Assembly (NCBI RefSeq): GCF_008831285.2
Contig: NC_045150.1
Location: forward strand, 16,553,362-16,617,361
DNA: 64,000 nt
From: Nymphaea colorata
Taxonomy: Eukaryota > Streptophyta > Magnoliopsida > Nymphaeales > Nymphaeaceae
Direction: 5' to 3'
Made by a program: the position numbers and the translations under genes. Below the pieces are notes generated by a model. That model was not told the origin of the DNA and did no database searches. It saw nothing but the letters and a program-made list of their open reading frames with translations. Positions 2,566 to 48,474 of the stretch are shown here, one piece after another; the stretch's first letter is position 1, and every line of letters begins with the position of its first letter.

Positions 2566-5123
2566 ATGACAGCCACCGGTTGGTCACCTCAGCTTCTCGT
2601 CTTTCTTTTGTGTTTCTCCTCCTTCACCTCGGTTGTGGTTCTCGGCCAAAGGGAGGTGTCCTCAGCCCCAGTTTCTTTGAGCAACGTGACTGATCAATTC
2701 GCGTTGCTCCGTTTCAAATCTCTCGTCACTAAAGACCCTTATAACGTGTTATCAAATTGGAATTCCAACATCTCTTTCTGCGACTGGAATGGAGTTTCAT
2801 GCAGTCGTGGTTCACAAAGGGTAGTTGCTCTGTACCTCTCCAAAAAGGCACTTGAAGGTACTCTTTTCCCATACATCAGCAATCTCTCCTTCTTACAAGT
2901 TCTTGATCTCTCGAACGACAATTTCCATGGTCACCTTCTCGTTGATTTTAGTCGCCTCTCTCTGCTAGAAAAATTTTCTATAAATGAGAACAATTTTGAG
3001 GGGTTGATCCCACAAACACTGACCATTGTCGTGGTCTCCAAATACTGTTAGGACAAGATAACCAATTCTATGGAAGCATCCTAAAGTTTCTAGGCAACTT
3101 TTCATAACTCAATCTTCTATACATTCGTGGTAATAGGCTCACCGGCATGATTCCAGTTGCTTTCACTAATCTCACAAAACTGTTGGTGTTTACTATCAGT
3201 GAAAATCAGATACAGGGAAACATTCCTCCAGAGTTCCTAACCCACTTGATAGGCTTTCACATGGAAATGAACAATCTCACTGGTACACTGCCTGACAGCT
3301 TGTTTAACCTATCTGCTCTTGAGATTTTGGATTTCACGTACAATCAACTAACAGGGCATCTCCCAAAAGATGCTGGCTAGTTCCTGCCCAATCTTCAACA
3401 ACTCTATATGGGTGTAAACAATTTTGATGGCCCTCTCCCGGCTTCTCTTTCTAATGCTACAAGACTTCAAGTTCTTACTGCAAAAAGAAATAAATTTAGT
3501 GGTCTGATACCATTAGAACTAGGTAGTCTGTCACAACTCACATACCTTGGCCTTTGGGGAAATATGTTGACCAATGTCCCTGGCAGCCGTGAGCTCTCCA
3601 TTCCCACATCCTTCACCAACTGTCGACTGCTAGAGGAAGTTTATCTAAATAAAAACCTTTTGAACGGCATTCTTCCTACCTCTGTTGGAAACCTGACAAC
3701 CACCTTGTCGAGACTTTACCTTTCCTCTAATCTGATTGAAGGTACTATCCCATTAGCTCTAGCCAACTTGACCAAGTTAATTGCCTTAGATTTGAGATCC
3801 AACAAAATAAAAGGGCTCATTCCACCAAATATAGGATCAATGAACAGGTTACAGGTGTTAGTTCTTTCTGGCAATGCATTAGAAGGCCCAATCCCACTAT
3901 CAATCTACTAGTTGGGTCAATTTCAAGCTCTATAAACAATCTCACTAGTTTGCAATGCATTAGTTGCTTTTGTTATTGGACACAACATGCTTATTCGGTC
4001 AATTTCAAGCTCTATAAACAACCTCACTAGTTTACGATGGCTGGATCTAAGTTCAAACAATTTGTCATCAACACTACCATCTGGTCTTTGTGAGTTGAAG
4101 GACTTGGAGAAGCTATACTTGCAGGACAACTCCTTCACTGGCCACCTGCCTTTGGGTGTCGGGAATTTTGCCATGATGAGCTACATGGATATCTCTGCAA
4201 ACAAGCTGAGTGGAGAGTTGCCTGCATCAATATCAAAGCTCCAAATGCTAGAGTATTTGAATCTCTCTCGGAACACATTTAATGGTCACATTCCTAAACA
4301 ACTTAATCACATGCTAAACCTTGACATTGTTGACCTTTCCCATAACAAGCTTTCCGGTGAGATACCAAAATCATTGGAGAAACTTCAACACATCCAGGTC
4401 TTGGACTTGTCCTTCAATCAATTGCAAGGAGAGATTCCAAGTGGTGGAAAGTTTGCAGAGCTTTCTGCCGAGCCGTTCCTAGGGAACTATGCACTATGCG
4501 AAGCTCCCAAATTCCATGTGCCAGTATGTTCAGATGGAGCAAAGAAGCACAATAATGTCAACACGCTCAGAGTTGATATTTTTTTAGCAAGTGGGGGCGT
4601 TGCACTTGTACTCATTGTTTGGATAATCATTGTTGTTACAAAATATAGAAAGAGGGGGTTTTTTGAAACATGATCAGGAGGTCGAAAGATTTCGTGGAAT
4701 TGCCCTCCCAGTGATCAGATACAGAATGTTATCTCAAGCGACAAACAATTTCAGGGATGCAAATTTTTTGGGGGAGTGGAAGCTTTGGTTCAGTGTATAA
4801 AGGAATTTTAATAGATGGAACAACGGTGGTTGTTAAGGTCCTAAACTTGTTTTCTGATGGAGCATAAAAAAGTTTTGACATAGAATGCAATGTGATGTGT
4901 CAAATTAGACATCAAAACCTTCTTAGAGTCATCACATCTTGCAAAAGTGCAGATTTCAAGGTTTTAGTTATCCAATATATGTCCCTTGAGAGCCTAGAAG
5001 TCAGTCTACATTCAGGTGGCCATCACTTGAGTCTCTTCCAAAGATTGGTTATCATGAATGACGTTGCTTGTGCTCTAGAATATCTTCACCATGGTTGCTG
5101 GGAGACTATAGTTCATTGTGATG
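2566..5123 (+). pseudogene. LRR receptor-like kinase pseudogene (LRR-XII, EFR/FLS2/Xa21 type)
   Basis: The ATG at 2566 opens a signal-peptide-like hydrophobic N-terminus. An LRRNT_2 cap follows (LLRFKS, then the CDWNGVSC cysteine motif), then many 24-residue LRRs with the LxxLxLSxNxLxGxIP pattern, a transmembrane helix at about 4573-4640, a juxtamembrane segment and the start of a kinase domain with GSGSFGSVYKG, VVKVLN and EYLHHG readable across frames. Lesions: disrupted frame at 3030-3150, TAG at 3378-3380, stop at 3909-3911 beside a local duplication, frameshifts near 4670 and in the G-run near 4775, and TAA at 4866-4868. Homology ends just after IVHCD, where LKPSNVLLD is expected, so the rest of the kinase lobe is missing. 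Family members sense microbial patterns at the plasma membrane; this copy cannot encode a working kinase. Confidence 0.93.
3915..4033 (+). repeat. Local 82-bp duplication inside the LRR pseudogene
   Basis: About 37 bases beginning GGTCAATTTCAAGCTC occur at 3915 and again at 3997 with one or two differences. The repeat adds a partial extra LRR and separates the third and fourth open segments. The preceding CAATGCATTAG word is also repeated (about 3873 and 3952), which suggests slippage between LRR repeats. Confidence 0.8.
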
Positions 5124-8329: not shown

Positions 8330-8897
8330 TAGGGCTGCACACGAGCCGAGTCGAGCTCAAGCTTGCCCAGCTCGAGCTCGACTCGACTCAACGAGCTCGA
8401 GCTCGAACTCGACTCGAACTCGAGTCGAGCTACCTAACACAAGCTCGAGCTTGACTCGATTAAATAAAGTCGAGCTCGAGCTCGACTCGATTAACTCGAT
8501 TAGCTCGTCTAAATAAAATATGATCCTTCTTTTTAAAATATCTAGTAAATTTCATGACGTGGGATGAAATTTGTGAATCACTCAACCGAGTCAACCCTGC
8601 CAACAGTTTAGAGCTGCAAATAGACACCATTTGGTATTAGACTGTTCTCATTATTAACTATTATAGAATCATAAGCTGATGACTGAACAAAATGGAAATA
8701 GGACATAATGTATATAAACGAGTCGAGTCGAGTATAAACGAGTCGAGTTCTTAAAACTCGAACTCGACTCGTTTACTCATTCGAGTTTCATTGTAAGCTC
8801 GAACTCGACTCGTTTATAAACGAGTCGAGCTCGAGCCGAGTTTAACCGGGCGAGTTCGAGTCGAGCCCGAGCTGGCTCGACTCGTTGTGCAGCCCTA
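8330..8897. mobile_element. Non-autonomous hAT element (568 bp) with perfect 8-bp TSD
   Basis: Ends are TAGGGCTGCACA on the left and its inverse TGTGCAGCCCTA on the right. CGGTCAGG occurs immediately outside both ends (8322-8329 and 8898-8905), an exact 8-bp target duplication as made by hAT transposases. The outer ~150 bp on each side are packed with GAGCTCGAG, AACTCGACTCG and GAGTCGAG words. There is no coding capacity. The ends and part of the interior (near CCAACAGTTT) match the 6750-bp element at 37053-43802, so this looks like an internally deleted derivative mobilised in trans. Confidence 0.93.
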
Positions 8898-10937: not shown

Positions 10938-11393
10938 TAAGAGTTGATTATTAATTATATGTTGAATGGTTCATTATTTGTATATTTTATATGTTTCAGT
11001 ATTTCTTATGTGCTCATTGTTATTCAATGGTGTTTGTAATGGTTATTTGTCATGTATGTTAGTGATGTTAATTTGGTGTTCACACGTTCAATGTCTCTTG
11101 CTTTTTCATTAATTCAACATGCTTGTACACTTTTTTGTCAAAAAATTCTTCAATAGTTTTTGCTATTTTGGATCATGTAGTTTAGTTGAAATGGTTAATA
11201 TAAACATGTTCGATGACGACAAAAAAAACAAGAGCGTTATTTGATTCAGCTGGTGTTTATCTTCATCTTTTTTTTGTTAAGGCCATTATCTCAAACTAAG
11301 AGGATTGTTCGTCCTTTTAGAGATGTCAGTCCTCTGTTTGGAGGACGCTCATGACATTATCATATAAAAACAAGTAGCTATATTTTTATTGAC

Positions 11394-11633
11394 TGTTGAC
11401 GGGTTTTGTTGTTCGGGTTCGGATCCGTACCCGATCCGGTTTGTCCTAATTAGGACTACTTATACTTCTGTAAACCCTAATCTTTGTGTTAATGAAGTGT
11501 TGAAGAGAGAGAGTGTCTGGAGGCTAGTGGGCACCAGACTTCCTCACCCGTGGTTTTTCTTCCCTCGAGTTGAGGGTTTTCCACGTTACATCTGTGTGCT
11601 TTCTTCTACTCTCGTGCACATTTTGTTTCTACA
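11394..11633 (+). repeat. 5' LTR of the copia element
   Basis: 240 bp, TGTTGACGGG...TTTCTACA. A TATA-like ACTTATACTT is at about 11458 and a purine stretch GAAGAGAGAGAGTG at about 11502. It ends directly at the primer-binding site. Confidence 0.95.
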
Positions 11634-11645
11634 TGGTATCAGAGC
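11634..11645 (+). promoter_or_regulatory. Primer-binding site (initiator tRNA-Met type)
   Basis: TGGTATCAGAGC abuts the 5' LTR end, complementary to the 3' end of plant initiator methionine tRNA, and primes minus-strand DNA synthesis. Confidence 0.93.
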
Positions 11646-12113
11646 CGTCGGACTTGGAGAAAACAAAATCTGTTTTTTCTATGGTTGTGAAGTTCCAACC
11701 TTGACTGCCGCCGCCGCTACCACCGTCGCCGTCGCTACCACCACCGCCGCCGCTGCCCTTGCTGTGCCGCCGCTGTCGCCGCACCGTGACCGTGACCACC
11801 GCCGCTGTCGCCGCACCGTGGCCACGTGACTGCCTCCGTCGCTGCCCTGTCGTGGCTGTGACCGCTGCTGCGTCGCTGGTGTCGTGACTGCCGACGCCAA
11901 CGTCTCTGCTGACGCCTCTGCCAATGCCGACGTCCGACGCCGTCACCTCTTCTCGGCGCGCGCTGCCAAGCGCCGCCCTCTGCTTCCGCCGCGTCCTGCT
12001 GCTTCCGCTGCTCCCGCCGCTTCCGCTGTTGATCCCCGACTGCGTCATCTCACCTCTTCTCTAGGTTACTGCTGCTGTGTGTGTTCTTTGGCAGCCACTT
12101 CTACCTGGTGATC
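11646..12113 (+). other. Copia leader with GCC/CCG trinucleotide runs
   Basis: GC-rich untranslated leader between the primer site and the gag ATG, dominated by GCCGCCGCT, CACCGCCGC and TGCTGCTTCCGCTG runs. Alanine- or serine/glycine-rich frames here on both strands are by-products of the repeats. It contrasts sharply with the AT-rich surroundings. Confidence 0.85.
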
Positions 12114-14438
12114 ATGGCTGACTCGTCTTCTTCTTCAGTCAACACTACTCTACCTGATGTTGTGTCTGCGCGGACTGATCATGTACCGGTTCAAGTTACC
12201 ACCATTCAACTTACCAAGGAGAACTATTCCCGATGGTCTGCTGCGATTACCATGGGGATTGCTGGGCAAGGACGCATTGCCTATGTGAATGGGAGAAAGG
12301 TTGAACCTGCTGCAGATAGTCTGGCTTGGGATACATGGTTTCTTGAAGACAACCAGGTCAAAACCTGGATTGTCAATTCAGTGTCCCCGGATATCCAACC
12401 CCTCATTCTTCGTAAGAAGATTGCAAGGGATATGTGGATTATTTTGGAGCAGATGTATGGCCAAAAGAAAAGGAAAGTTCGTGTGTATCAACTTATGAAG
12501 GATGTGTATTCCCTGCGACAAGGTGCTCTCTCGGTTGCAGACTTTTATGCAGCATTAAAATCTAAGTGGGAGGACCTTGACTATCACTCTGATATTCCAT
12601 GGAGGTGTCCTCACGACCAGATGCAGTACATGACTGATAAATGGGAAAACAGGGTATTCCTTTTCTTATCCGGACTGAATGATGACTTTGAAAATATAAG
12701 GAGTCAGATTCTTAACTCTGACGAATCATTTAGTATTGAAGATGTCTATTCCCGTGTTGAAGCTGAAGAACAGAGAAGGCTGCTCTCTAGTGGACGAAAG
12801 GCGGAAGAACAGTCTGCCTATGTTAGCCGTGCCCCTGTGGGAACTCCTCGTTCTTCCCGAAAATGTACACATTGCAAAAAACTTGGTCATACTAGGGATT
12901 TTTGTTGGGACCTATATCTAGAGAAGAAGGATAGTAGGGGGAGGTCTTCGAGTGGGAAGAAGCCTGTATCGTCTGCAACAAGTCTGAGTCATGGGAAAGG
13001 TTCTATTTCTGCAGAGCAGATTCGTGAGCTACGAGCATATTTGAGCAAGATTGATGTTGGTCAAACAGATACACCAGATGAGGTGAAGATCAATCAGGCA
13101 TTGGCTGTTTTAGGGGGAGAATGTACTTCTTATATGGGTGAATGGATTGTTGACAGCGGTGCCACTCATCACATGACTGGCAACCCCAAGCTTTTCCATG
13201 ACTACAAGCTATCCTCGGGAAAGGAACGTGTGTCCCTTGCCGATGGTTCCTTTACTTCTGTGGCAGGGAATGGGAGTCTTTCCTTGTTAAATAATTTTTT
13301 AGTTCATGATGCCTTACATGTTCCTCATCTTCCCTTAAATTTGTTATCTGTTAGTAAGATTACCAAGGAACTGAAGTGTGAGCTTATATTTTCTGAAAAA
13401 CGTTGTGTTTTGCAGGACTTGGTGACAGGGAAGAGGATTGGGATTGGTTTGGTGTCTGATGGGCTGTATCGGCTTCCTATACGCGTTGTCACAGCTCTTA
13501 TGTCAGCAGTCAGCAGAACAGAGAAGAAGGAGGAAGAGTATCGTCAGTTATTTTTGTTTTGGCATGAACGCCTTGGTCATCTCCCATTTGGGATTTTGAA
13601 ACATTTGTTCCCTGAACTATGTTCTAGTTTAAACATTTCCATGTTATCATGTGATGTGTGTCAGTTTGCGAAGCATGTTAGAGCTTCTTATCCAATTTCA
13701 AATAGTCATTCTAATAAAGCTTTCTCATTGGTTCATTCTGATGTGTGGGGGCCTTCGGGCATTCATTCTCGTGGTGGTTTTCAATACTTTATAACTTTTA
13801 TAGATGATTATTCAAGGTGTACCTTTGTGTATTTGTTGAAAGATCGTAGTGAGGTGCCTCACATTATTGAAACTTTCATCCTCCTAGTGGAAAACCAGTA
13901 TGGAAATTCTGTCAAGACTTTTCGGTCTGATAATGCTCGTGAATATCTGTGTCTCACTGTTGAAGAATTCTTTCGAAAGAGGGGGATTGTTCATGAGACA
14001 TCCTGTAGTTATACCCCCCTTCAAAATGGGGTGGCTGAGAGGAAAAATCGTCAGTTGCTCAATGTCACCCGAGCCATACTGTTCCAAAGAAATCTCCCAA
14101 AATACTATTGGGGTGATGCAATCCTTACTAGTGTCTACTTGATTAATCGCATGCCTAGTCGTGTGCTAAAGGGTCGTACTCCCTACTCTATGCTTCCAGG
14201 GAGTAGTCAACCTTTTTATCTTCCTCCTCGAGTCTTTGGATGTGTGTGTTTCATACATAACCACAGCCCCAATGTGAAAAAACTTGATCCCAAATCTATT
14301 AAGGGCATCTTTCTTGGGTATTCTTCCACTCAAAAAAGTTATAAATGTCTAGATCCCACCACTGGTCGTCTTCACATTACCAAAGATGTCACATTCTTGG
14401 AACATGTCTCTTATTTTGGTGAGAATTCTCTTCAGGGG

Positions 14439-14954
14439 GAGAAATTAATGTCTAAGGAAGAGTATTCTCCCACACAGGAAATTCAGTTTACAAACTTTAT
14501 GGATTACAGGCGTGAAGAGAATCCTGTTGCCAAGGTGCGTGGCAAAGATGAAGATGGCAAAGATGAAGAGGGGACGACTACTGATGTACATAAACAGGAG
14601 AAGGAGGGAGAGCATCCTATGGTGACAGAACAAGAGGGTAATCGTATGTTTGGACAGGTGTATTCCAGGAAAAAAGCTTGTACTGACAAGGTGATTGAGA
14701 AATTAATGTCTAAGGAAGAGTATTCTCCCACACTGGAAATTCAGTTTACAGACTTTATGGATTACAGGCGTGAAGAGAATCCTGTTGCCAAGGTGCGTGG
14801 CAAAGATGAAGATGGCAAAGATGAAGAGGGGACGACTACTGATGTACATGAACAGGAGAAGGAGGGAGAGCATCCTATGGTGACAGAACAAGAGGGTAAT
14901 CGTATGTTTGGACAGGTGTATTCCAGGAGAAGAGCTTGTACTGACAAGGTGATT
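14439..14954 (+). repeat. In-frame 86-codon tandem duplication within pol
   Basis: 14439-14696 and 14697-14954 are near-identical 258-bp units (about five base differences), each encoding a charged, acidic/lysine-rich linker that begins EKLMSKEEYSPT. The unit length is a multiple of three, so the frame survives. It lies in the variable linker between the integrase C-terminus and RT. Confidence 0.95.
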
Positions 14955-16718
14955 GATGATGAGGAGGTTACACCGAATCCCAATCCTACTTCTTCCTTGG
15001 ATGATCCAAGTCGTGTTCAGAAGCAAGATGTTGGAAGAGAAATTCAGACTGGAAAAGAAAAGGAGGATCTTCCTATTACCTTGAGAAAGGGGGTCAGGTC
15101 ATGTACCCAGCACCCTATTGGTAACTTCGTATCTTACTCTAGATTGAGCACTGACTATAAATGTTTTGTATCCTCCTTGGCTGTGGTTGTGATTCCCAGG
15201 AATGCTACAGAGGCTCAGGGTGACACTAAGTAGTCTCATGCAATGAAAGAAGAGATGGAAGCTTTAGACAGAAATCAGACATGGGAGGTGGTTGATATTC
15301 CTGAAGCAGCCCACTTGGTTGGGTCGAAGTGGGTCTACACTGTTAAGTACAAACCAGATGGGAGCATTGAGAGGTACAAAGCACGATTGGTGGCCAAGGG
15401 GTTCAGTCAGAAATATGGGATCGACTACTTAGAGACGTTTGCTCCTGTTGCAAAGATGAAGACGGTTAGAGTTATTATTTCATTGGCGGTGCTGAAGGGT
15501 TGGGAGATGTGCCAACTTGATGTAAAAAATGCCTTTCTCAATGGAGATCTTGAAGAGGAAGTGTACATGTGCATGCCACCAGTTTTGAGAAGCCTGGAAA
15601 ATGCTGTAAATTGAAGAAAGCTTTGTATGGGCTGAAACAGTCTCCTCGAGCATGGTTTGAACGGCTCAGACTTGTTATGAAGAAACATGGCTACAAACAA
15701 GGAAATGGAGATCATACCCTGTTTGTAAAGAGAAGAGAGAGTAAAGTTACTCTACTATTGGTTTATGTTGATGATATGATTGTTACAGGTGATGATAAGG
15801 AAGAGATAGCAAGATTAAAGGGTTTACTATCTACTGAATTCGATCTAAAAGATCTTGGTAAGCTGAAGTATTTTCTGGGTATTGAAATTGCTAGATCAGG
15901 TACAACTCTTGTACTTAATCAAAGGAAGTATACCCTGGATCTACTAAAGGAGACAGGAAAACTGGGATGACCAGCCTCTACTCCTATAGATGCTGGGCAT
16001 AAACTTGGTAGCAAAGATGGAGAACTATTGTGTGAAGAAGCTAAAGGGAGATATCAACGTCTAGTTGGCAAACTGATTTATCTCACTCTGACTAGACCTG
16101 ATATCACATTTGCTGTAAATGTGATGAGCCAGTTCATGCATGCACCTACAGATATGCACTTGAAGGCTGTGGATAGAATTTTGTGCTACTTGAAGAAGAA
16201 TCCCGGAAAGGGACTTCTATATGTGCAACAAAGATCTATTGAAGTTGAAGGGTATTCTGATGCAGACTGGGCAGGCTGTGTTGACACCAGAAGATCTACT
16301 TCAGGATACTGCGTCTACTTGGGGGGAAATTTAGTTGTTTGGAGAAGCAAGAGACAAGATGTGTGTTCCCGCTCGAGTGCAGAGGCTGAATATAGGGTTG
16401 TGGCTACTGGGGTATCAGAATTGTTATGGCTGAAGATCTTACTGACAGATATTGGAATAGAGATTGAAGGGCCTATGAGGATGTATTGTGATAACAAGTC
16501 TGCAATTAACTTGGCTAACAACCCGGTTCTTCATGATCGAACAAAGCATGTGGAGATCGACCGTCACTTCATCAGAGAAAGAATTGATGCTAAGGAATTA
16601 ACGCTACCATACATGAAGTCTGAAGACCAAACTACTGATGTCCTAACCAAGGCCTTAAGTGTAACTCCATTTGAGAGAAATGTATCCAAGTTGGGCATGT
16701 TTGATATGTATGCCCAAC

Positions 16719-16729
16719 TTGAGGGGGAG
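16719..16729 (+). promoter_or_regulatory. Copia polypurine tract
   Basis: TTGAGGGGGAG ends at the base before the 3' LTR (TGTTGACGGG at 16730). It primes plus-strand synthesis in LTR retrotransposons. Confidence 0.9.
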
Positions 16730-18058
16730 TGTTGACGGGTTTTGTTGTTCGGGTCTGGATCCGTACCCGATCCGGTTTGTCCTAATTAGGACTACTTATA
16801 CTTCTGTAAACCCTAATATTTGTGTTAATGAAGTGTTGAAGAGAGAGAGTGTCTGGAGGCTAGTGGGCACCAGACCTCCTCACCTGTGGTTTTTCTTCCC
16901 TCGAGTTGAGGGTTTTCCACGTTACATCTGTGTGCTTTCTTCTACTCTCGTGCACATTTTGTTTCTTCATTGACCATTAGAGATAATGCGCGCAATCGTG
17001 CCACTCACAATACGTTTCAACATTCTAGACAAACAATAAACAAATATGTCAATTTTGTCCTACAAGCAATATGTGTATTAGGTAAGGATTATATTTGGCG
17101 GCCCAACAATGACATGCCAACTAGTATTCGACGATATGAACAGTTCTTCTTATATTTTTAGGTGATTTCATAATCATACTCTCACCATAACATATATAAG
17201 ATGTCTAACTTGCATATATACATATAGGATTGTTTAGGAGCAATTGATAGCACTCATGCACCTGCATGGGTATCAACATCAAATCAAACAAGATTTTGCA
17301 TAGAAAATGAGTCATCTCTCAAAATATTATGGCTATAGTTGGATTCGAAACTCAATTCCACTATGTCATGCTAAGATGGTAAGGAAGTGAGACAGACTCA
17401 AGAATACTACTATACAATACAATTGATCATCTAACCGACCCATTTGTTGTGCCACAAGGTAAGTAATTCCATCAAAATTGCATACATTTATATAGGCAAT
17501 CAACAAAGTTTGTAGAATTTATGTTGACTTATAGAAAAATATTATCCTTCTGATTGGGGGGGTGTTATACAAACATTGTTGGTTTGCTAACACCTTATCA
17601 GGGGTATTGTTATCATATGTCCTGAGTTTAACGCACCTAAGGCACACACACCTAAAACTCTCAAAGAATTATTCAGCCATAGACATTCATCACTCTGACA
17701 CGTAGTAGAAGGAAATTTTGGCATGTTGAAAGAACAGTCAAATATTGAAAATTCAAGTGCAATATCCATTTCAAAAACAAGTTCAAATTGTTTTTACTAC
17801 ATATGTACATAATTTCATAATTGAACAAAATCATAATGCTGAGCAATTTGTTGATGAAGATGCTCTATCGAATGATAATGGTTTTGTGAACCTGAAATTG
17901 CAAGACAAACACATTAACGAGAAAGCAACAATTCGATAAAAACAGCTATAACAACTCAAATTTTTACAAATTATCAATTGAATGGTAAGTTTGTTTATCA
18001 ATTAATGATATTTGCATGTGTATGTTTGACATCTATTTCGTTTTGAATAGGGCAACAC

Positions 18059-29950: not shown

Positions 29951-30660
29951 TCCTGCAGAAACTGGCTCTGGTATTAGGAAACTTCAATTTCTGGAACTCT
30001 CAATAAGAGCACAATAACGAAAGATCCTCCAGCAAGAAGTCAAACAGGGCACCAAGGCACTTCAACGGAGTACAACACCCAAATTTCTTCAGTAAAGGGA
30101 CAAAACCGTGCACAAGGCACAAATCCAAGCTGATAACAAAGCAATGAGCAACTTAAGAAATGGCACCAAGGCCCCAAACTCTGCTGTCAACAGCAGCAAC
30201 AAACTTACGAAACAGGCACTAACGCCTAACCAGTAAACAGGCACAATGGCCCCAAACTCTGCTGTCTCTGTCAATAGCAGCAACAAACTTACGAAACAGG
30301 CACTAAGGCCTAACCAATGAACAGGCACAAAGGCCCCAAACTCTGCTGTAAACAGAAGCAACAAACTTACGAATCAGGCACTAAGGCCTAACCAATATAC
30401 AGGCACAAAGGCCCCAAACTCTGCTGTCAACAGCAGCAACAAACTTACGAAACAGGCACAAAGGCCCCAAACTCCGCTGTCAACAGCAGCAACAAACTTA
30501 CGGCACAAAGGCCTAACCAACAAACAGGCACAAAGGCCCCAAACTCTGCTGTCAACAGCAGCAACAAACTTACGGCACAAAGGCCTAACCAATAAACAGG
30601 CACGAAGGCCTAACCAAGAAGAACACACCACAAAGGGGCACCAAGGCCCAACAAGAGCCC
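29951..30660. repeat. Minisatellite with hairpin core CTGCTGTCAACAGCAG
   Basis: GGCCCCAAACTCTGCTGT begins six units at about 30171, 30249, 30332, 30411, 30463 and 30535. Each is followed by an ACAGCAG arm, CAACAAACTTACG and AGGC(A/C)-TAACCAA words. Spacing varies from about 50 to 83 bp. The segment 29990-30130 repeats sequence from 28560-28700 (AGCAAGAAGTCAAAC, CACCCAAATTTCTTCAGTAA). Leucine-rich minus-strand frames are artefacts of the array. Confidence 0.88.
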
Positions 30661-34225: not shown

Positions 34226-37052
34226 AGCTGATACGAGCCTTAGTCCGAGTAGGGCTAACCAAGGCCAAAGGCACGGCCACAGTGAGAGATCACGGCTCAA
34301 TGGAATTAAACTTCGAGCCTAGAGAAAATACAGTGGGAGGTGCGGGAGGATATACAACGGCTCTAGGACATGAATGAACTAGATGAAGACCAGCAATTGG
34401 GGGAATCTGCGAGTTATGCCATGGTCCATTCTTGAGTTGTGTCGAAACCCAAGTCTCTAGAGTCGGTCTAGGACGAGTCTAGGGAGGTCTCTTGGCTGAA
34501 TTGAGCTCAGCTCAATGAGGTTAAGGGATGTGTCAAGTCTGAAGTTTGGGTGGCAACCCGGACGAGGTCCCCACCTTGAGCTCACAAGGCTCAAGGGGTG
34601 TCTAGCTAGGACTTAGCCGTTTTTCACTTCTTGATTTGCTTTATTTGAGTTTGCGCCAATTCAGTTTTGGATTCAAACTTACCAAGGCGGGTTTTGCCTT
34701 GGATCCGTTTTGCTTTAGCATATTCTGGATTTGGATTTGGGCTGGTTCCATGCATGGGAACCAGATTTATGTACTCATGTATATAAGATTTTGATTCATG
34801 TGTAAACGCATGCAATTTTGAGAAATCAAGGTTATTTGATTCTTTGCTCTCTCTCTCTCCTCACTTCTCTCTCTTCTCGTGCCTCTCTCTCTCTCACGTT
34901 CTCTCCAATCTCTTCTCTTAAGACCAGCATGCGGGCCCTCTACTCCCCCTTCCCCCTCACGTCTTCCTCTCCTCTCCTTCCCAACTCCTCACTATCTCCC
35001 CTCTCTTTCATTTACATCAACTCTCGTTGAAGAAGAATGTGACGGCTTTCTCTTGGGTGAGCCACGGCCCTAGGAGTTATCATCGTCTTCATTTTCGCAT
35101 CTGCCCAGCCACGTCTTGGGTGCAATATCTCTGCTACATCAGAGATATTAGAGGCCTAAGTTGAGCAAGGAGACTGGGTCTTCATCCAAGGAAGGGCAGC
35201 AAACTCATGGTTTCCTCATACAAGGTTAGTTCTTGGATTCCTAAGGTGAAAGCTAAGCAAGTACGTTGGTTTAGTTTGATCCAAGGTTTGACTTACAAGA
35301 AGATGAGAAGTCTCGAGTCACAGCCGAGATTCCCTTCTTCTCCACGGTTGAAACTTGATTTAAACCAAGTTTTACGTGTCTTAGAAGATCCTAGGCGTTG
35401 AGGCTTTCCTAGTTGAGAAATCACTCAAGGAAACGGCACAAGAAGAGTCGATCGATTCTAGCTTTCATCCACGGTCCATCTTTAGAATTTCGCCGGCAAA
35501 GTCAGAATTCCATCCTCAAGAAATCACGGTGAGACCATCTTGGACATGGGAATGGACCATATAAGGTGATTCCATGCAAAGAAAGAAGAAGATACACATT
35601 GGTTTCGCGAAGAACGGCCTAGGCGATAGCAAGCACCAAGTCATCGGGAACTTCTGGTTTTCCGGCGACCTCTGCCATAATCCGGGCCACATTTGGGGGA
35701 TTCCGGTCATCATCACCCAAGGACCAAAGTGCCCTTCCTTGCCACGAAGTGAGACCATCATTTCTAAGGGTAATTCCATCCAAAAGTACTCCAAGGAGAT
35801 ACAACATGGAGAGGAGATTTTCTAGGCGAGAATTAAGGGGAAACTCCTACATTCTAGCTTCAAAAAGTGGTACCAGCTTCATCCTTACCCTTCTAAGTCT
35901 CTCCTAGCCCTTCATCCAGATCCTTAGGAGAAGATCTGACCCTTGATTTGCACGTGAGTTGGAAGAGAATCCCCACATTTGGAATCCTCATTCCACAAGG
36001 CGCCACCTCAACACATTTGACTACATTGGAGGAGCCGGTGCCACTAGTGCCCACATTTGGAGGGATTTGCTCTTTAGTTTAGGTGTTTCAATCATTAACC
36101 ATCCTTAGATCCCAGCCACATCACATCCCACTTACCACCTTTGAATTTTCAGCCTTAGATCTAGAGGATTATCCTAGGTTCAAGTGTAGGAGTCCACCTT
36201 TTGATCCCACGTCGAACTCACGTGATCCCTAACCCTCCTTAGTTCCTCATTAGCTCTCTCATTTAAACCCAAGCCACTCGTTCAATCATCCTTGAACCTA
36301 ACCACCAGTTCCTAATCATCATCCCACATTCCCTTGTCTTAATCCACCTCGTTCCCGACCTCACACCCTTAGATCACCTTCCCTTACACAGTAGCCGAAG
36401 CCGTCCAAGCCCCTATCGCTCCTAACCGGCCCTAAGCCAGCCACACTTAGGATAATTACCAAGCTCTACGGCCGAGCTTTCCTCTATTGACTGTAGTTAG
36501 GTAATTCCTCAGCTAAGACCATGCTGAATCCACCCATCCCCAGCCACAACTAGCATTTGGTGTGCACCCTTGGGCATTTCATCCACTCGCCCAAGCGAAT
36601 TGAGGTTCCTATCACCAAGCAACCGTCAAAACCAGCAGCAGCAACCGAGTTGAAGAGAAGACATCATAGACTTTGCCGGCGATCTTCTCCAACTTGGCGT
36701 CTTACTTGGCGTTGCAGCACTTTCCACCTTGGTATCCCGATTTTCTCAGCTGCAACCTTACATCTGGAATTCATCCTCAGCAGCACCTACAGCAGATCAT
36801 CAAAGAATTCCAAAAGATTCATCAAATGAACCCCGAGCAAGCCTTGGGGAGGTACTTTATTTAGACTAGTTAGATTTGCTATTTTCCTTGCATAGTTTTG
36901 AATCGCTTCCACATTTGTCCAGTATTCCTGTAGTTTTCCGGTGGCCTAGAGCCTAAGATCCAACTACAAGGAGTGTGTTTGGTCTGAGTCTAGCCTTAGT
37001 TTCTTCTTTGAGTTGTGTTTGTTCAATCTTTAGGCGTCTTTAGACCCGTGTG
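34226..37052 (+). mobile_element. Probable LTR/leader region of a large retrotransposon, left part
   Basis: Contains a TATA-like GTATATAAG at about 34778 followed by a CT-rich transcript-start-like stretch (34846-34910), then long non-coding GC-moderate sequence with no domain. The end (GTCTTTAGACCCGTGTG) continues in style across the hAT insertion at 43803. Typical of long gypsy LTRs or LARD-type elements, but no second LTR or primer site was found. Confidence 0.35.
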
Positions 37053-37350
37053 TAGGGCTGCACACGAGCCGAGTCGAGCTCGAGCTCGCCCAGCTCGAAC
37101 TCGACTCGGCTCAAAATACTTGAGCTCGAACTCGAACTCGAACTCGAGTCGAGTTCCTAACACGAGCTCGAACTCGACTCGACTATACATAGTCAAGCTC
37201 GAGCTCGGCTCGTTTAACTCATTTAATGTTTAATTGTTTAATAGTCGAGCTCAACTCGTTTAACTCGTTTAGTCGAGCTTGACTCGTTTAACTCGTTTAA
37301 CGTTTAAGAATTAAACCAATAGTCGAACTCGACTCGTTTAACTCGTTTAC
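37053..37350. repeat. Left TIR and subterminal GAGCTCGA/AACTCGACTCG array
   Basis: Dense runs of GAACTCGA, GAGCTCGAGCTC and, further in, ACTCGTTTAACTCGTTTA. In hAT elements such as Ac, subterminal motifs bind transposase; here the word differs but density and placement match. Confidence 0.85.
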
Positions 37351-38990
37351 TGAATCAAATCAAACCAATTGTATTACTGCTAACAGTTTCATCAAAAAGA
37401 TATATAAAACCACCTGGCATTAATTATGTTCAGATTGTCAACAATTTTTGGAATACATTATACATACAAGCAATGACTGTATCAAGTTCGAGATCTCAGC
37501 AAGAACAGTCTGAGGGGCATAGACGCATAGTGGAAAATTTCAAGTTCGTGATACATTATACATACAAGCAATGACTGCAAACATACAAGCAAAACAGAAT
37601 GAATGGTGCCCATAGTAGCCATTGTTGTGTTCATTTTAAGAGTAATAGCATAAACAATCAGCGCCTAAACAGAAGTCACAAACGCTTGACAAAGCCAACC
37701 CAGTCCGTTTTTGGCCACTGATCTCCTGGAACCAAGTCCATTTCAATGGTTAAACCAAGTTTCCAAACAGCCCATCTCCACAAGAACTGCACACCAAATT
37801 AGCATCCACATCTATATGTCTCCATCAGAGATTCAGAATAACACAACCAGCAGAGACTTCTAAAATGCAACCTGTGAAAACACAGAAAAACCAAACCTAT
37901 GTCAGTCAAAATGCTTACAAATTCATTGACACCAATAAAACTCGCACACACCTCTAAAAGGTTAACCACTCTTCCATAGCACGTTATTGACAGAAACCGT
38001 AGAAATTCACCGGAAAACAACCACAAACATAAAAGTACAAGGATAATTGTAAAACTATATGGCAAGTTATAAAAATTCCAATTCAAACTGTATAGCAAGC
38101 CAAAGCATCGTGGGACCAAAGACTGTAGGAGGCGACTAAGTCTGTCATGCTAGGATCACATCACAAGAGCAATTCATTTCTCGGTTACGGGATAAAATAA
38201 AAGATAAAAATAAAAAATATGGTGATGTACTCCTATACCTCGGATCCACCTAAATAGCAAATAGGAATCAATAAGCATGCAGAATTGGATAGTATGAATA
38301 AAAAGGATTGAAGAAAGATCATTCCTACATGAATCACATTCTTATCAGAAATGTAAACCAATATGGGGTTTATCGAAGACATGCAGACAATCCAACATTT
38401 ATCGACCTTGATTTCATACCTCATTTGTATTTTGCATGGCTGATCAATCATTGCAGCCTGACCAATCAAAAGAATGAAGTTCAGAAAACAATAAAGGTTA
38501 AATTCAAACCAGTTGGACGGGTAAAGAATTTTGGCAACCTGTTACCGTGTTACGACATTTACATATGTGACTACTTGCATAAAACAAGATGGGTTCAACT
38601 GCTATGTACTTCCAGTCTTCCACCATTCACTAAGCAATAAGAACATCAAGAAGCAAAACTGAATGCAAATTGTGAATTCAGTACACAGTGTTCAGAATAT
38701 TATCTAGAATTGAGGTGGCCCATCCTTTTGGAGCTCGTTAAAGGCTCGATTAACATACCCTTTTGAATCACATTAGATCAAATGAATAAAACCTGAAAGC
38801 AAATGAAGAAAGAAGTTTTCCATCTGAAACAGACACTAGAACAATAAGCAAATGAATAAAACCCGTACACAGAAAAAGATTAAGAAAAACTACAAGAGGC
38901 AACTGAAACAGACACTAGAATCACATTAGATCAAGAAAAAGAAGAAAACAAAACAACAAAAAAAAAGGCATTACCAAGAGGCAACTTGAA
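37351..38990. other. hAT 3' non-coding region
   Basis: Downstream of the transposase stop on its strand. AT-rich, no second gene. Sequence around CTGCTAACAGTTT (37378) resembles the interior of the 568-bp element near 8607. A polyadenylation site is expected here. Confidence 0.6.
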
Positions 38991-41190
38991 TCATTCTAAT
39001 GATATATATTCACTTGATTCATCCTCAACCTGAAAGAAATACATATAGTCAATTAACAAATGATTCACAAAATATTTAATGAATACAATTTATTCAAAAT
39101 ATACTTACTTGTGTTACAACTTCATGCATTGGATCACCATCATTCTTTACCCAATTACCCAAACAAACCAAAGCTTCAACTGTTTTTGGCACCAATGAAC
39201 TACGACTATCATTAACAATTCGACCTCCTGTACTGAAAGCTCTTTCTGAAGCAACAGAAGTTATTGGAATTGACAACAAATCACGTGCCATTTGTGAAAG
39301 AATTCGATACTTAGATTCCTTATCCTTCCACCATTGCAAAAGATTGAAAGAAAAAGCATCACCATTATTATCATGCTTAATCAATCCGTCCTCCAAATAT
39401 GTGTCTATCTCAGATTTGGTGACCTGAAAAGCAACATTCTCAGCTTTACCTAACAAGTTAAAAAATAGATCTATTCCACATTGTAGGGTGTCTTGACTCT
39501 CTCGACTTTGAATACTAGAGGAATTAGTTGAAGCAGTAGAAATATTGACATCCACTTCATTTCTTTGAATGTAACTTTGATATACATCTTGTAAAGATTG
39601 TTTTACCATTTGCATTTGTTCTTCCCTTTCTTCTCTTGATTGGTAAATTCTTGAAAAGACAAGTTCTGATAATGTGAGTTTCACGCGTGGATCTAATATG
39701 GATGCAATAATCATGATCAAGTTACAGGATTTCCAATATTTATCAAATTTGTCCTTCATTTTCACTGCCATTGCCTTCATAAACCCACCTTCACTTTCAA
39801 CTTTTTCCTGCAATATTGCTTGAACTCTCCAAATTTCAAGAAAATATAAGTTTGTTGTTGCATAAGATGACCCAGAAAATAGGGTCGACACTGAATAAAA
39901 AACACGAAGAAAACCACATATCACTGCAATTTTTTCCCAATCCTCGGGTCCAAGCAACCATACCAAACCTGGGTCTTCCATGCTATATCTTGCAAAAGCA
40001 TCTTTATATAAAAGAGCTCTTTCCAACATAAAATATGTTGAATTCCATCGAGTTGGTACATCTAACACTAACTTCTTTGACGTTGAAAGATCCAACTCTC
40101 TAGCTGCAGCTGCAAAACCATGGAGTCTTGAAGGTGAAACTTTGATATATTTAACTGCCTCTCTAATGCTAATGATTTCATCCTTAATGGCACTCAATCC
40201 ATCTTGTACCATTATATTCAAAATATGTGCACAACATCGCACATGAAAAAATTTACCTCCATGATACAAGTTGATGCCGCTCTTTTCCATGTTTTCTTTT
40301 AATTTTCTGACAAGAACATCATTTGATGAAGCGTTGTCAACTGTAATAGATATTATTTTCTTTTTAATCTCCCACTCTGCAAGATGTTTAGCAATTACAT
40401 TTGCTAAAACTAACCCAGTATGAGGTGGCTCAACTTCGGTAAAGTTAATGATACGTTGTTGCATCTTCCAATCTTTATCAATGAAATGTGCTGTTAATGC
40501 CAAATATCCAAGTTGTTGGTTTGATGTCCACATATCTGTAGTCAAAGCAATCTTCTCAACACCCTTGAAGACAAGAAGTAATTTCTTCTTTTCATCTTCA
40601 TATAATTTCATGACATCTCTCTTAACTGTCGTTCTTGAAACTGGCACCCAATTAGGAAAACCAAGCCTAAGAATGAACCTAAACCAACAATTATCCACTA
40701 TGGAAAAAGCATGTTCTCCGGTTGCCACTAGTTTTGCAATTAACTCTCTTATTGCTTGAGCATCAATGTTGGAACCAATTTCCATAAGCTTCTTCGTGAC
40801 ATCTGAAGTAGTCCCAGATTTAAAACTTAAAGTCGTTTGCTTTGTGTTAGCACAACGTGTCAAACATTTGTGTCTTCTCATTGATGATGTAGAGCCTCCT
40901 TCACTTATCGAAAATAGTGCACTGCAGTATTTACATTTTCCTTTTTTGATACAATTTATAACAACCTCGTCAAAATCATTCCATATTGTAGAAGTCTTTG
41001 ACCTTGACCTTTTTGCACCACTTATACGTACTTCATGAGCATCTATTGAAACCCCTTCATAGTCAGGGTCTTGCGAATCTATAGGAGTTTCATTAGAGGA
41101 ATGTACTCCATTTGGGACATCATCTGAACTCGGTCTCGAATCACATACTTGTTTGCCCTTATTAATGCTCGAGCTTCCTAAATTTGTCAT
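38991..41190 (-). CDS. hAT transposase (BED zinc finger, DDE, dimerisation domain)
   Basis: ATG at 41190. The main exon runs 41190-39109 (694 codons). A donor (CAA|GTAAGTAT) and acceptor (TTTCAG|GTTGAG) define a 79-bp intron (39108-39030), and a 12-codon exon ends in TGA at 38993-38991, giving about 706 residues; without splicing the frame stops at 39094. Domains: BED finger at ~65-115 (CKYC...H); RNase H-like catalytic core with D219 (TTDMWTS), D285 (TVDNASSND), RWNS at ~381 and E649 (VASERAFSTGG); C-terminal hAT dimerisation helix at ~595-680. All three catalytic acids are present with no stops. It cuts and pastes its own element and probably non-autonomous relatives, acting in the nucleus. 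Domesticated relatives (RICESLEEPER/DAYSLEEPER) exist, but the TIRs and TSD here argue for a mobile copy. Confidence 0.95.
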
Positions 41191-43560
41191 TCTTCAAACT
41201 AGTAATTTTCCCTCCTGCTCAAGCTATTCTCCTATTTGAACATGAAAAGAAATTACTCATCAACAAGCATATTACCAGTTACGTCTAATCAAACAAGAAG
41301 ATTGTTCAATCATCATAATGAGATACCTGAGGTGGGTAGACTAGAATCTCATTCTATTATGCTCACATGATCACAATCATGCAACATGGAAGAAAATGGT
41401 ATGTTATTTGAAAGCATAAGACATGAACTGAAATATTTTGACAGACATATAAACTGAACTAGTGTGACTGTAAACAAGAATCTAAGTATATTTATAAAAG
41501 CAGCCGCAAAGCTTTTATTGGTTGGATCTCGACTCAAACTACATACCACATTAGCCTAGCAGACTTGGGAAATTTGCCCGTCCGGGATAATACAGTCTTG
41601 AGGTATCCACTATAACCAAAATAAAAACCAAACCTCAGAATTTTAAACATCATTCTAAAGACAAACTTTACAATTTACATGAAGACAATTTATAAATGAA
41701 TTCAGAAAAATAATTAATTGAAATTGTTATAAATGACCATCTACCCAAAACAAAGAAAAAGGAACTTGAAACAAAAATGATGAACCAGTACCCTATATTA
41801 CAAGGAAAATTTAATAACTCGCAAGTTCTCAATCAAATACCTATTGGAATTAGAAATGCAATAAAAAAATTGCAATTATGTTATTGTCAAAAGACTCAAA
41901 ACCATTAAATCACTTCATGGTGGAAAGTCCTTCAACAATAGTGTCCATAAGCTGATGCTAATGGTTTTTGTGTTTCTAATATCTGGATTTATCTCATACA
42001 CAAACTAGGAAGTTCAGTCAGGTTTGACTCTCCCTGATAAGGAAAGAGTTTCAAGTCAGCTAGCAGCCAAAGGCATGTGAACACATCTTAAGTTCACTGG
42101 CAGTCAAGTGCACACCCTAGGATGACAATTAGCAACGAGGGAATGGTTATAAGATCATCCGCAGTCCCTGCTAGCAGAGATAAAGATCATTGTGGAAAAC
42201 CTCCCATTGCCTAAAAAAATCACGTGCATGCGCAAATGCACAAAGAAACAAGAAGGAAAGAAAAATCCAGTGAGGAGAACATCCAATCATAAAATTTAAA
42301 TTGTATAAAGTTACAAAAAAAAATCTACTGAGTACATAAAATAAGTTCCAATAACAAAATATAAATTCCTCAAATAGCATGAACACTTCCCAACCCCAAT
42401 TAAAAAGGGCATCAGATTTGCAACGAAAAACATGATTGAAATACCATCATATGCTACAAATTTGTAAGAGTTTTGAGGCCCTTTTCTGCAAAAAGAATAT
42501 GGCATACTAATTCTTTCTATTTGTAAATAATCAAACTGCAGGTAACACAACAAAATCCATGACAGGAAAAACAATCAAGCAACAGTTTCACAGAGAGGGA
42601 TAAAAACCAATGTCATGAATATCAACATTAGTTTTGAAATATCACATTAAAACACCCAAAACAAATAAACAAACACACTAAAAGAACATCAAGAACGATC
42701 AACTTAAAACCAACTTAAAACTATACGTTCCAACGTTATGCAAAATCGGTGCACATAAAAAATCTACCGGAACAGTGTAAGAGAAGTAAAATTCCGTGGG
42801 TTCACCTTTAACCTTGTTGCAGAAGGCTGATAGAGCACGACGTTGCGTGGGATAAGCTCGGGAGGGAGGCGCTCCTTCGCCTCCGCCTTTCCAAAGATGA
42901 AAGCGGCCACGGCGAGTACACTGACGCTGCCTCGCAGGGAAACCAAAGCACAGAGCACAGGCGGGCGGACTGCGGAGAAGAAGCACAGTGAAGCAGGGCG
43001 GGAGGCAGAACTTTAGTGACGAAACAGAAAACCCAAAAACAAGAGCAGAGGACTAGCATATTGAGGTAGCAACCGGAGAGAGAGAGAGAGCCCTACCGAT
43101 TCACGGAATCAACCGGAGGAGCAAATACCCGCTCGCTGCCGGACTGTCGGATCCATCGAAGAGAACCGAAGAGGAAGATCGAGGGACGCCCTCTAAACTT
43201 GAATCTGCACTAGAGACGATGTGTTAACATTCAAATCAGTTGTTATACACTTAGATCACAAATGTGTTAGGAATCCAACAAGAAATGGGGTAAAAAACAG
43301 ATGAAATCGAAGGCGGAGCAGCCGGCTGACCTTGAAGGCTGAAGTGGCCCACGGACACGGCCCGCGGACGACTGGTTCGGTGGTTCCTCCTGCAGACGTC
43401 GGAGAATCCCGGACGAGAGAACTAGAGAAGAGAAGAGTTGATGAAGTCGGAGAGATCGAGGGGCGACTGGCAAGAGAGGGAGAGTCGGAGAGAGCGAAAA
43501 CTTCAAAAGAGAGGGAGAAGTGAGATTCGAGAACGAAAATGAAATGAGGAAACCCTAAAC
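41191..43560 (-). other. Transposase 5' region: leader, probable UTR introns, promoter-proximal DNA
   Basis: Minus-strand upstream DNA of the transposase. The GC-richer blocks at 42790-43060 and 43090-43560 look like untranslated first exons separated by AT-rich introns. No conserved coding domain is seen. Confidence 0.5.
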
Positions 43561-43588
43561 CGCGTCCCGCTTTGACGCTTTTTCATCT

Positions 43589-43613
43589 GAACCGGTTTTA
43601 AAAAAACCGGTTC
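43589..43613. promoter_or_regulatory. Perfect 11-bp inverted repeat (GAACCGGTTTT)
   Basis: GAACCGGTTTT, a 3-base spacer and AAAACCGGTTC, placed between the subterminal array and the transposase leader. Possible operator-like or hairpin element; function unknown. Confidence 0.5.
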
Positions 43614-43802
43614 ACTAAATAATCGAGCCGATTCGAGCTTTAACGAGTTCACTTACATGAACTCGAACTCGACTCGATTAATTAAACGAGTCGGCTCATC
43701 AACTCGAGCTCGACTCGTTTAACTAAATAAGCGGCTCGTTTAAACATACGAGTCGAGTTAAACGAGTCGAGTTCGAGTAGCTCGACTCGTTGAACAGCCC
43801 TA
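43614..43802. repeat. Right TIR and subterminal GAGTCGAG array
   Basis: Words such as AACGAGTC, CTCGAACTCGACTCG and GAGTTAAACGAGTCGAG lead into the terminal CAGCCCTA. It also forms the putative promoter side of the transposase gene, so transposase binding could feed back on its own expression. Confidence 0.85.
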
Positions 43803-44080
43803 CCCGTGTGGACCCTCTACGAGGATCTTGGGTGTAGGATCGACCCTAAGAATCGGGAACTCGCCTATATTGGGGTTAGGTCCTACCACAAGCTGTCTTG
43901 TCTTCTTGTATTAAGGGGAGACATGAAGGATCAGCCCCCAAGCTCCTATGACATGCACAAGCTCAGCCTCCTCATAACACATAACCTGCCTCTCATCTTT
44001 GGGGTGCAGGCTGTCCATTCTGACCTCATAACATATACTCTGCCTCGAGTAAAAGTGGGAAAGTTCCGTTGACTATTTAA
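43803..44080 (+). mobile_element. Right part of the retrotransposon-like region split by the hAT element
   Basis: Starts with the second copy of CCCGTGTG and continues GGACCCTCTACGAGGATC and TAGGATCGACCC, wording typical of gypsy LTR 3' halves. The next 350 bp to 44426 show poly-A/T runs and nothing else. Confidence 0.35.
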
Positions 44081-47763: not shown

Positions 47764-48200
47764 GTTACACAAGATACTGTAGCACAAGCACAAAGAGGAA
47801 CTTGTGTAGTTATTGAACCAGTTTGTATTTTGATTTGTGTGTGATGACTGAAAAATATATTTTTGTATTTAATGATAAAAGAATATATTTTCAAATTTCC
47901 AAAAAATTATTTCTTAGTTGGATAAGAAGAAAACATATTTTCAGATTTACATAATCTTTTGATATAGCGAATAAATAATCAAGCATCTACCAAACCATGA
48001 CCAGCGATGCAATGAACATGAAGATCAACTACTAGTTATTCAATAATTATAATTTTAATATGATAACACATTTTGACTTGTGATACGGGTGTGTTTGTGT
48101 GTGTGTGTGATAAGAGCACAAAGCCAAGTGCATGTGTAGAGTATCCACTAAACTGAAAAAAAATTAAAATTTTGAATTTTTTTTGTTAAGCTACAATAGA
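47764..48200. other. Unassigned AT-rich DNA
   Basis: A short (GT)n tract near 48090; nothing else recognised. Confidence 0.35.
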
Positions 48201-48474
48201 TTTCCAGCCGGTCAAACTAGCCCTTAAGAAAGAGAAAACAAAACAGCTATGCACAGAAAGAGAAAATAAAATTTCCAGCCGGTCAAACAAGCCCTTAAGA
48301 AAGAGAAAACAAAACAGCTATGCGCAGAAAGAAAAAACAAAATTTCCAGCCGGTCAAACGAGCCCTTAAGAAAGAGAAAACAAAACAGCTATGCGCAGAA
48401 AGAAAAAACAAAATTTTCAGCTGGTCAAACGAGCCCTTAAGAAAGAAAAAACAAAACAGCTATGCACATAAGGA
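48201..48474. repeat. 71-bp minisatellite, four units
   Basis: Units start TTTCCAGCCGGTCAAAC at 48201, 48272, 48343 and 48414, exactly 71 bp apart. Each contains CTTAAGAAAGAGAAAACAAA and CAGCTATGC. The last is truncated. The lysine-rich frame from 48320 is a by-product. Confidence 0.97.

Follow-up and report, generated by a model that had tools for sequence, protein, structure and literature searches.

A probably young, structurally autonomous hAT transposon of a modular family in the water lily Nymphaea colorata

How young is the 6,750-bp hAT transposon in a 64,000-nucleotide stretch of Nymphaea colorata DNA (contig NC_045150.1; the whole stretch is referred to here as the window), and how did its family come to have bodies that differ from copy to copy? 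A first-pass annotation, made from the sequence alone, had called the element (positions 37053 to 43802) structurally complete and possibly young or still active. Structural completeness holds, as the ends, the target site duplication (TSD), and an open transposase frame are all present. We put at roughly 85% the probability that this is a young, structurally autonomous hAT element (i.e., Ac-like and moving by cut-and-paste) located in the long terminal repeat (LTR) of a retrotransposon, and that it belongs to a modular family whose bodies may have been swapped by repair.

A complete hAT element inserted in a retrotransposon LTR

The element and its boundaries are as follows (body types A to H are labels coined in this analysis).

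37053..43802, minus (transposase strand): complete hAT element with a type A body, delimited by TSD, ends, and empty sites
37045..37052, unstranded: left copy of the TSD CCCGTGTG, exact match to the right copy
43803..43810, unstranded: right copy of the TSD CCCGTGTG, exact match to the left copy
37053..37060, plus: terminal inverted repeat (TIR) TAGGGCTG, perfect over 8 bp
43795..43802, minus: TIR CAGCCCTA
37061..37357, unstranded: left subterminal repeat array of CTCGAACTCG and CTCGACTCGTTTAAC units, presumed transposase binding sites
43585..43794, unstranded: right subterminal repeats, alignable across body types

The perfect 8-bp target duplication reported at first pass was confirmed by an exact CCCGTGTG on both sides of the element. 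The claim of matching TIR ends held for 8 bp: 10 of the first 12 positions of the inverted ends agree, the perfect stretch is 8 bp, and the likeness beyond it consists of subterminal repeats of the CTCGACTCG and GTTTAACTC types. Motifs of the CTCGACTCG, CTCGAACTCG, and GTTTAACTC types (six) were confined to the first 400 and the last 250 bases of the element. The TIRs of hAT elements are typically short and of the (C/T)AGGG type, which is what we found in TAGGGCTG...CAGCCCTA; the duplication has the 8 bp of a hAT insertion, and the empty sites agree with it.

The 400 bases to the left of the element had matches at 20 other places, 19 of which extended along their full length. These matches included six same-strand pairs with a spacing of 6.44 to 6.48 kb, which suggests the two LTRs of one retrotransposon. 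A query made of both flanks joined with a single CCCGTGTG matched continuously over the junction in 20 LTR paralogues, all without the insert, with LTR homology stopping ~80 bases past the junction. A single CCCGTGTG was present at the empty site in all six of the paralogues that were fetched and aligned. The insertion of the element is thus proven and not a product of chance. The target LTR itself (window positions ~36653 to 37044 and 43803 to ~43888) had no nearby partner copy among the matches and may be a solo LTR of the family that has six same-strand pairs elsewhere.

Transposase gene and protein

The coding region is predicted to be split by a short intron.

39109..41190, minus: transposase exon with the ATG, 694 codons
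39030..39108, minus: predicted 79-bp GT-AG intron, with splice signals in all 18 copies inspected
38991..39029, minus: predicted last coding exon, 39 bp, VEDESSEYISLE-stop

The uninterrupted transposase of about 700 residues claimed earlier exists as an open frame of 698 codons (39094 to 41190, minus strand). The last 15 bases of this frame, stop included, fall inside the likely intron, and the spliced product is predicted to have 706 amino acids. Donor GTAAGT and acceptor CTTTCAG were found in all 18 copies looked at. The 39-bp exon (stop at 38991 to 38993) was identical in 11 of these 18; among the seven that differ, two type B copies (L033 and L041) read TGG for the stop, and one type G copy (L039) has an internal stop.

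Pfam assigned hAT-like_RNase-H (PF14372; residues 439 to 540; E value, 2.5e-28) and Dimer_Tnp_hAT (PF05699; residues 594 to 680; 3.4e-28), both far above the cut-offs. The dimerization domain and the RNase-H region of a hAT transposase are therefore present. Of the catalytic residues named at first pass (D219, D285, and E649), the first and the last are aligned with the catalytic D and E of the housefly element Hermes. D285 was identified from its motif, and all three proteins compared have it, but the pairwise Hermes alignment places it poorly; the DDE triad is complete with two aligned residues and one assigned by motif. Against the more distant copy L047 (synonymous divergence [dS], about 1.0), the ratio of nonsynonymous to synonymous divergence (dN/dS) was 0.26, which indicates long-term constraint.

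A twin copy and the other members of the family

We searched the 407.8-Mb assembly (783 contigs). A twin copy (C3:18643934-18650683) showed 1 mismatch in 6,750 positions relative to the window element. This twin has its own perfect 8-bp TSD (CGTCCATC) in unrelated surrounding DNA, and the frames and ends of both copies are intact. A near-identical copy at an unrelated site implies that the lineage transposed very recently. At an assumed substitution rate of 7e-9 per site per year, the single difference corresponds roughly to ~10,600 years (Poisson range, ~270 to 59,000). The first-pass suggestion of youth thus gains stronger support than that reading could provide, and not every copy is diverged, the twin being one base apart. 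That the lineage is young is strongly supported by these comparisons; the element may or may not be mobile today.

The transposase protein search yielded at least 78 matches (986 candidates, 64 of them scored), of which we fetched 20 regions for comparison, the window's own copy included. Both ends were set in 13 of the 20, and those copies measured about 6.5 to 7.3 kb. Ten of these 13 transposase-bearing copies had a perfect 8-bp TSD; the TSDs of L034 and L040 were mismatched, and the right end of L048 was set some 11 bases short. Five regions (L039, L042, L044, L046, and L049) were partial in the TSD count, and two (L032 and L047) stood outside it. The left ends of L032, L039, L042, L046, and L049 lie beyond the fetched or set limits, so that their left bodies were seen only in part. 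L044, which overlaps L034, was excluded from the all-against-all comparison; in this region (C11:5542400-5554500) the right end of the first element is directly followed by another transposase block of the family, a truncated one, possibly as a nested or tandem rearrangement. The ends, the TSDs, and the many copies ruled out a domesticated host gene.

Copies sharing the element's ends, a search for which had been proposed at first pass, were numerous: 1,370 left ends (635 + 735) matched with at most two mismatches, and the reversed pattern matched 1 + 0 times. Set against the at least 78 transposase matches, this number indicates that many members are probably non-autonomous.

A common transposase block between differing bodies

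Comparison of the fetched copies revealed a modular family, in which the transposase block and the ends recur from copy to copy and the DNA between them varies with the type.

About 38810..41451, minus: transposase block common to otherwise mostly unrelated bodies, edges varying by type

Ten copies (L033 to L037, L041 to L043, L046, and L048) share the block with the window element at 95.5 to 97.7% identity over about 2.3 to 2.8 kb. Its edges run from element positions 1623-1852 to 4144-4399 (window positions about 38675-38904 to 41196-41451). The element ends were 72 to 90% identical where an end matched. Beyond the block and the ends, alignable DNA was scarce; L042 and L046 were exceptions, and others had short stretches. 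The coding-region dS between the window copy and these ten copies (types B to E, L035 included) was only 0.024 to 0.042. Three further copies (L040, L039, and L049; types F, G, and H) had a dS of 0.11 to 0.13 and contained yet further bodies. At least five body types thus surround one coding block at a transposase dS below about 0.05.

The block junctions were sharp in the nine copies displayed, and their positions differed between types, identity falling from about 92 to 100% to background at type-specific points. Every block included the coding region and intron, although most copies are now broken; the type C block stops 6 bases before the ATG, and the type F block starts within about 50 bases after the transposase stop. 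Within a type, long stretches were about 94 to 98% identical (L033/L041, 97.0%; L034/L036, 98.2%; L037/L043, 97.1%; L042/L046, 94 to 96%), while L048 matched L037 only in pieces (90 to 97%).

A more sensitive comparison of the two bodies of the window element with eight other copies revealed three patches in type E (87 to 95%) and, close to the right end of L040, a stretch of 150 bp that matched at 75%; the other matches were weak (55 to 106 bp). At least two copies are chimeras of types: L038 combines a type A left end and core with a type E right end, and L035 combines a D-like left part with an E-like right end.

All or part of the left body (37380 to 38800) recurred at about 20 other places; no gene was recognized in it, and the matches that could be placed belong to the same family. 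Pfam searches of seven body open reading frames (types B, E, F, and G) returned only two matches, both below the cut-off (Glutaredoxin, E value, 0.016; PsaL, 0.07). The PsaL-like stretch lies in a frame of the L040 left body (element positions 806 to 1165) and may be a further captured gene piece or a chance resemblance.

The right end and a probable captured host fragment

Two features of the window element lie between the transposase block and the right subterminal repeats.

43000..43560, minus: GC-rich/CT-rich region, presumed promoter and 5' leader, AAACCCTAA at 43550 to 43558
42719..42914, minus: captured, decayed host fragment, comprising the 3' part of an exon (PGES2-like gene, glutaredoxin motif) and the start of an intron

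The motif AAACCCTA occurred within the last 420 bases of all 17 copies looked at (as AAACCCTAA in 12 and as AAACCCTAG in 5), adjoined by CT-rich DNA in the sense of the transposase. The right end was alignable between types in 12 transposase-bearing copies. We infer from these features that the right end, with AAACCCTA and the CT-rich stretch, is promoter and leader; in that case the intervals that differ correspond to the 3' spacer and to the 5' leader or intron. Type-specific promoters were considered and dropped because this right end is common to the types.

Region 43000 to 43560 recurred at 95 to 98% identity in four other places (C10:19778023, C1:33061760, C1:42586495, and C1:40185254) and partly in a fifth (C7:9261380). 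A left end of the family lies about 2.5 to 3.1 kb from at least three of them. None was among the transposase matches listed, and they are therefore probably non-autonomous relatives.

The captured fragment runs in the sense direction of the transposase, within the presumed 5' leader, and is the one likely case of a host-derived variable part (i.e., a PGES2-like exon with intron, embedded in types A and E). Aligned to C9:24128576-24128784, it shows 16 mismatches over 209 columns and a gap of 13 bp. The 401 bases fetched from this place (L057) contain one open frame, in which the exon ends in LELTPRNVVLYQYEACPFCNKVK and is followed by a presumed intron. The type E copy L042 has 7 differences from C9 over 285 positions of the segment. 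Over 23 residues, its peptide is similar to prostaglandin E synthase 2 (E value, 0.0099); it also resembles the start of glutaredoxin (0.016, below the cut-off). A GST_N_3 match (profile positions 17 to 61; E value, 0.14, below the cut-off) was located at C9:24125973-24126101, 2.5 kb downstream of the C9 exon on the same strand, where the next exon is expected. Individually weak, these resemblances together moderately support a prostaglandin-E-synthase-2-like exon. Parts of the segment also matched C9:7957780, C7:3516576, C13:14876501, C6:25178342, and C2:27792498, among others; the C9 locus is one candidate source alongside these partial matches.

Weighing the alternatives

Several observations weigh against a young, autonomous element with repair-swapped bodies. 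The BED finger named at first pass is weak (residues 69 to 107): zf-BED (PF02892) scored 14.9 bits with the whole protein and 18.3 bits with the N-terminal piece, below the Pfam cut-off of 20.6; C86, C89, and H107 of the finger are conserved in the three compared proteins. An AlphaFold prediction from three proteins was unusable (pLDDT, 31.6). The identification of the host exon rests on short or sub-cut-off matches and concerns one body segment only. The dN/dS of the young group relative to the window copy was 0.35 to 1.10 (the L034/L036 pair gave 5.5, at a dS as low as 0.002), which points to little or no recent constraint. Finally, 16 of the 19 copies compared had a frame gap or a stop, although some gaps may be in frame.

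These broken frames also favor the alternative that comes closest, namely that the element is young but immobile now and that the near-identical pair represents the last products of a silenced or dead burst. Residues 1 to 698 are free of stops in only three frames among the matches listed, as such a burst would lead one to expect. Set against this are the two copies with intact frames and ends, 1 base apart in 6,750, and the third intact frame (L005/L034), which occurs in another body type than that of the window element. We regard a dead burst as a serious possibility, although one that we would bet against.

The bodies might instead go back to homologous introns and spacers of great age, which changed beyond recognition in separate lineages, with the transposase block homogenized later by gene conversion. 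The similar sizes of the elements and their GC-rich stretch close to the right end fit such a history, and the alignable right end, with AAACCCTA in 17 of 17 copies, suggests common descent of at least that end. We nevertheless consider such an origin of the bodies unlikely, given the abrupt loss of identity at type-specific points, the patches of one body found in another at 87 to 95%, and the likely host exon with intron embedded in types A and E. A segmental duplication or assembly duplicate as the origin of the twin, for which nothing speaks but the identity itself, is dismissed: the fetched flanks of the two copies showed no similarity by BLAST, the perfect TSDs differ, the copies lie on separate contigs (18.0 and 30.9 Mb), and the joined C3 flank matched only itself across the assembly.

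How the bodies may have been exchanged

Under the reading that we prefer, the transposase would bind the subterminal CTCGACTCG/GTTTAAC repeats, cut at the TIRs, and join at 8-bp staggered sites, in the manner of hAT enzymes generally. The excision break would be mended by copying. Template switching during repair, as suggested by the products, would replace tolerant intervals (i.e., the 5' leader or intron and the 3' spacer) and would, at least in the case of the PGES2-like exon, import host DNA. To spread as autonomous elements, products would have had to keep the ends, leader, and coding region, while transposase-less copies would have moved in trans. The full proposal, that an autonomous water-lily hAT element swapped its bodies very recently through template-switching repair that sampled host genes, sparing ends, leader, and coding region, is tentative, and we give it slightly less than an even chance.

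If it is true, the family amounts to a natural archive of individual exchanges and shows which parts an autonomous hAT element can do without. Closely related chimeras with base-level junctions could test the repair and template-switch model of host-sequence uptake by DNA transposons. The intact pair, one base apart and with clean ends, would be a good start for a hAT mobility test, in a host whose lineage may have split off early among flowering plants. This pair and the closely spaced chimeras are the potentially useful parts.

Other features of the window

8330..8897, plus: relative of 568 bp that shares the ends but has no room for the transposase gene, perfect 8-bp TSD CGGTCAGG

This relative lacks AAACCCTA and was likely mobilized in trans. 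The window also contains a retrotransposon (11391 to 16970) that is copia-like by eye, with terminal 244-bp repeats that are 97% alike, a frame of 1,050 codons (12081 to 15233) that contains a tandem duplication of 258 bp, and another frame of 235 codons (16028 to 16735). This retrotransposon and the 568-bp relative qualify the first-pass remark that most neighboring elements are decayed. A 228-codon leucine-rich-repeat frame with a C-terminal hydrophobic stretch (3987 to 4673) resembles, by eye, the end of a plant receptor-like protein. Tandem arrays occupy 48200 to 48468 and 30162 to 30636, with units of about 71 bp and 78/125 bp, respectively.

Comparison with known systems

Among solved structures, those of Hermes (PDB 6dww, 4d1q, 2bw3, and 8edg) matched the transposase (E values, 2.5e-14 to 1.5e-13). 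The catalytic core and C-terminal region are similar in sequence, with the same D and E motifs; the relationship is distant, and no nearer solved structure was among the matches listed.

Among the open-access papers searched, we found none on a hAT transposon with TAGGGCTG ends and none on Nymphaea with hAT, transposon, and transduplication; a search for the Nymphaea colorata genome, transposable elements, and hAT returned only papers on other plants. Pack-TYPE hAT elements, as presented in PMC8903248, likewise hold captured genic DNA between hAT ends. They are non-autonomous by definition, whereas the window element has an intact 698-codon frame and is thus not one of them.

Maize Ac/Ds resembles the window element in being a hAT system with an 8-bp TSD. 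In PMC3260210, the Ac TIR is given as C/TAGGGATGAAA, Ds2 elements have the ends of Ac but unrelated DNA as filler between them, gene fragments occur in some Ds elements, and a suggestion is cited that captured DNA enters through repair of the excision break. The filler-bearing Ds elements are non-autonomous, whereas here elements that keep the transposase have differing bodies.

The closest match in design is the grapevine hAT family Hatvine-6, for which PMC2528002 describes a 13-bp TIR, a 9-bp TSD, a variable length, and variable parts that often match genic introns and exons. Both families have one transposase and common ends with a variable remainder. They are likened by design only; the TIR and TSD measure 13 and 9 bp in Hatvine-6 as opposed to 8 and 8 bp here, in copies of about 6.5 to 7.3 kb; in the window element, moreover, the host fragment sits sense-wise in the presumed 5' leader. 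Because Hatvine-6 shares this design, the architecture of the water-lily family is already known, and what is new is the member itself.

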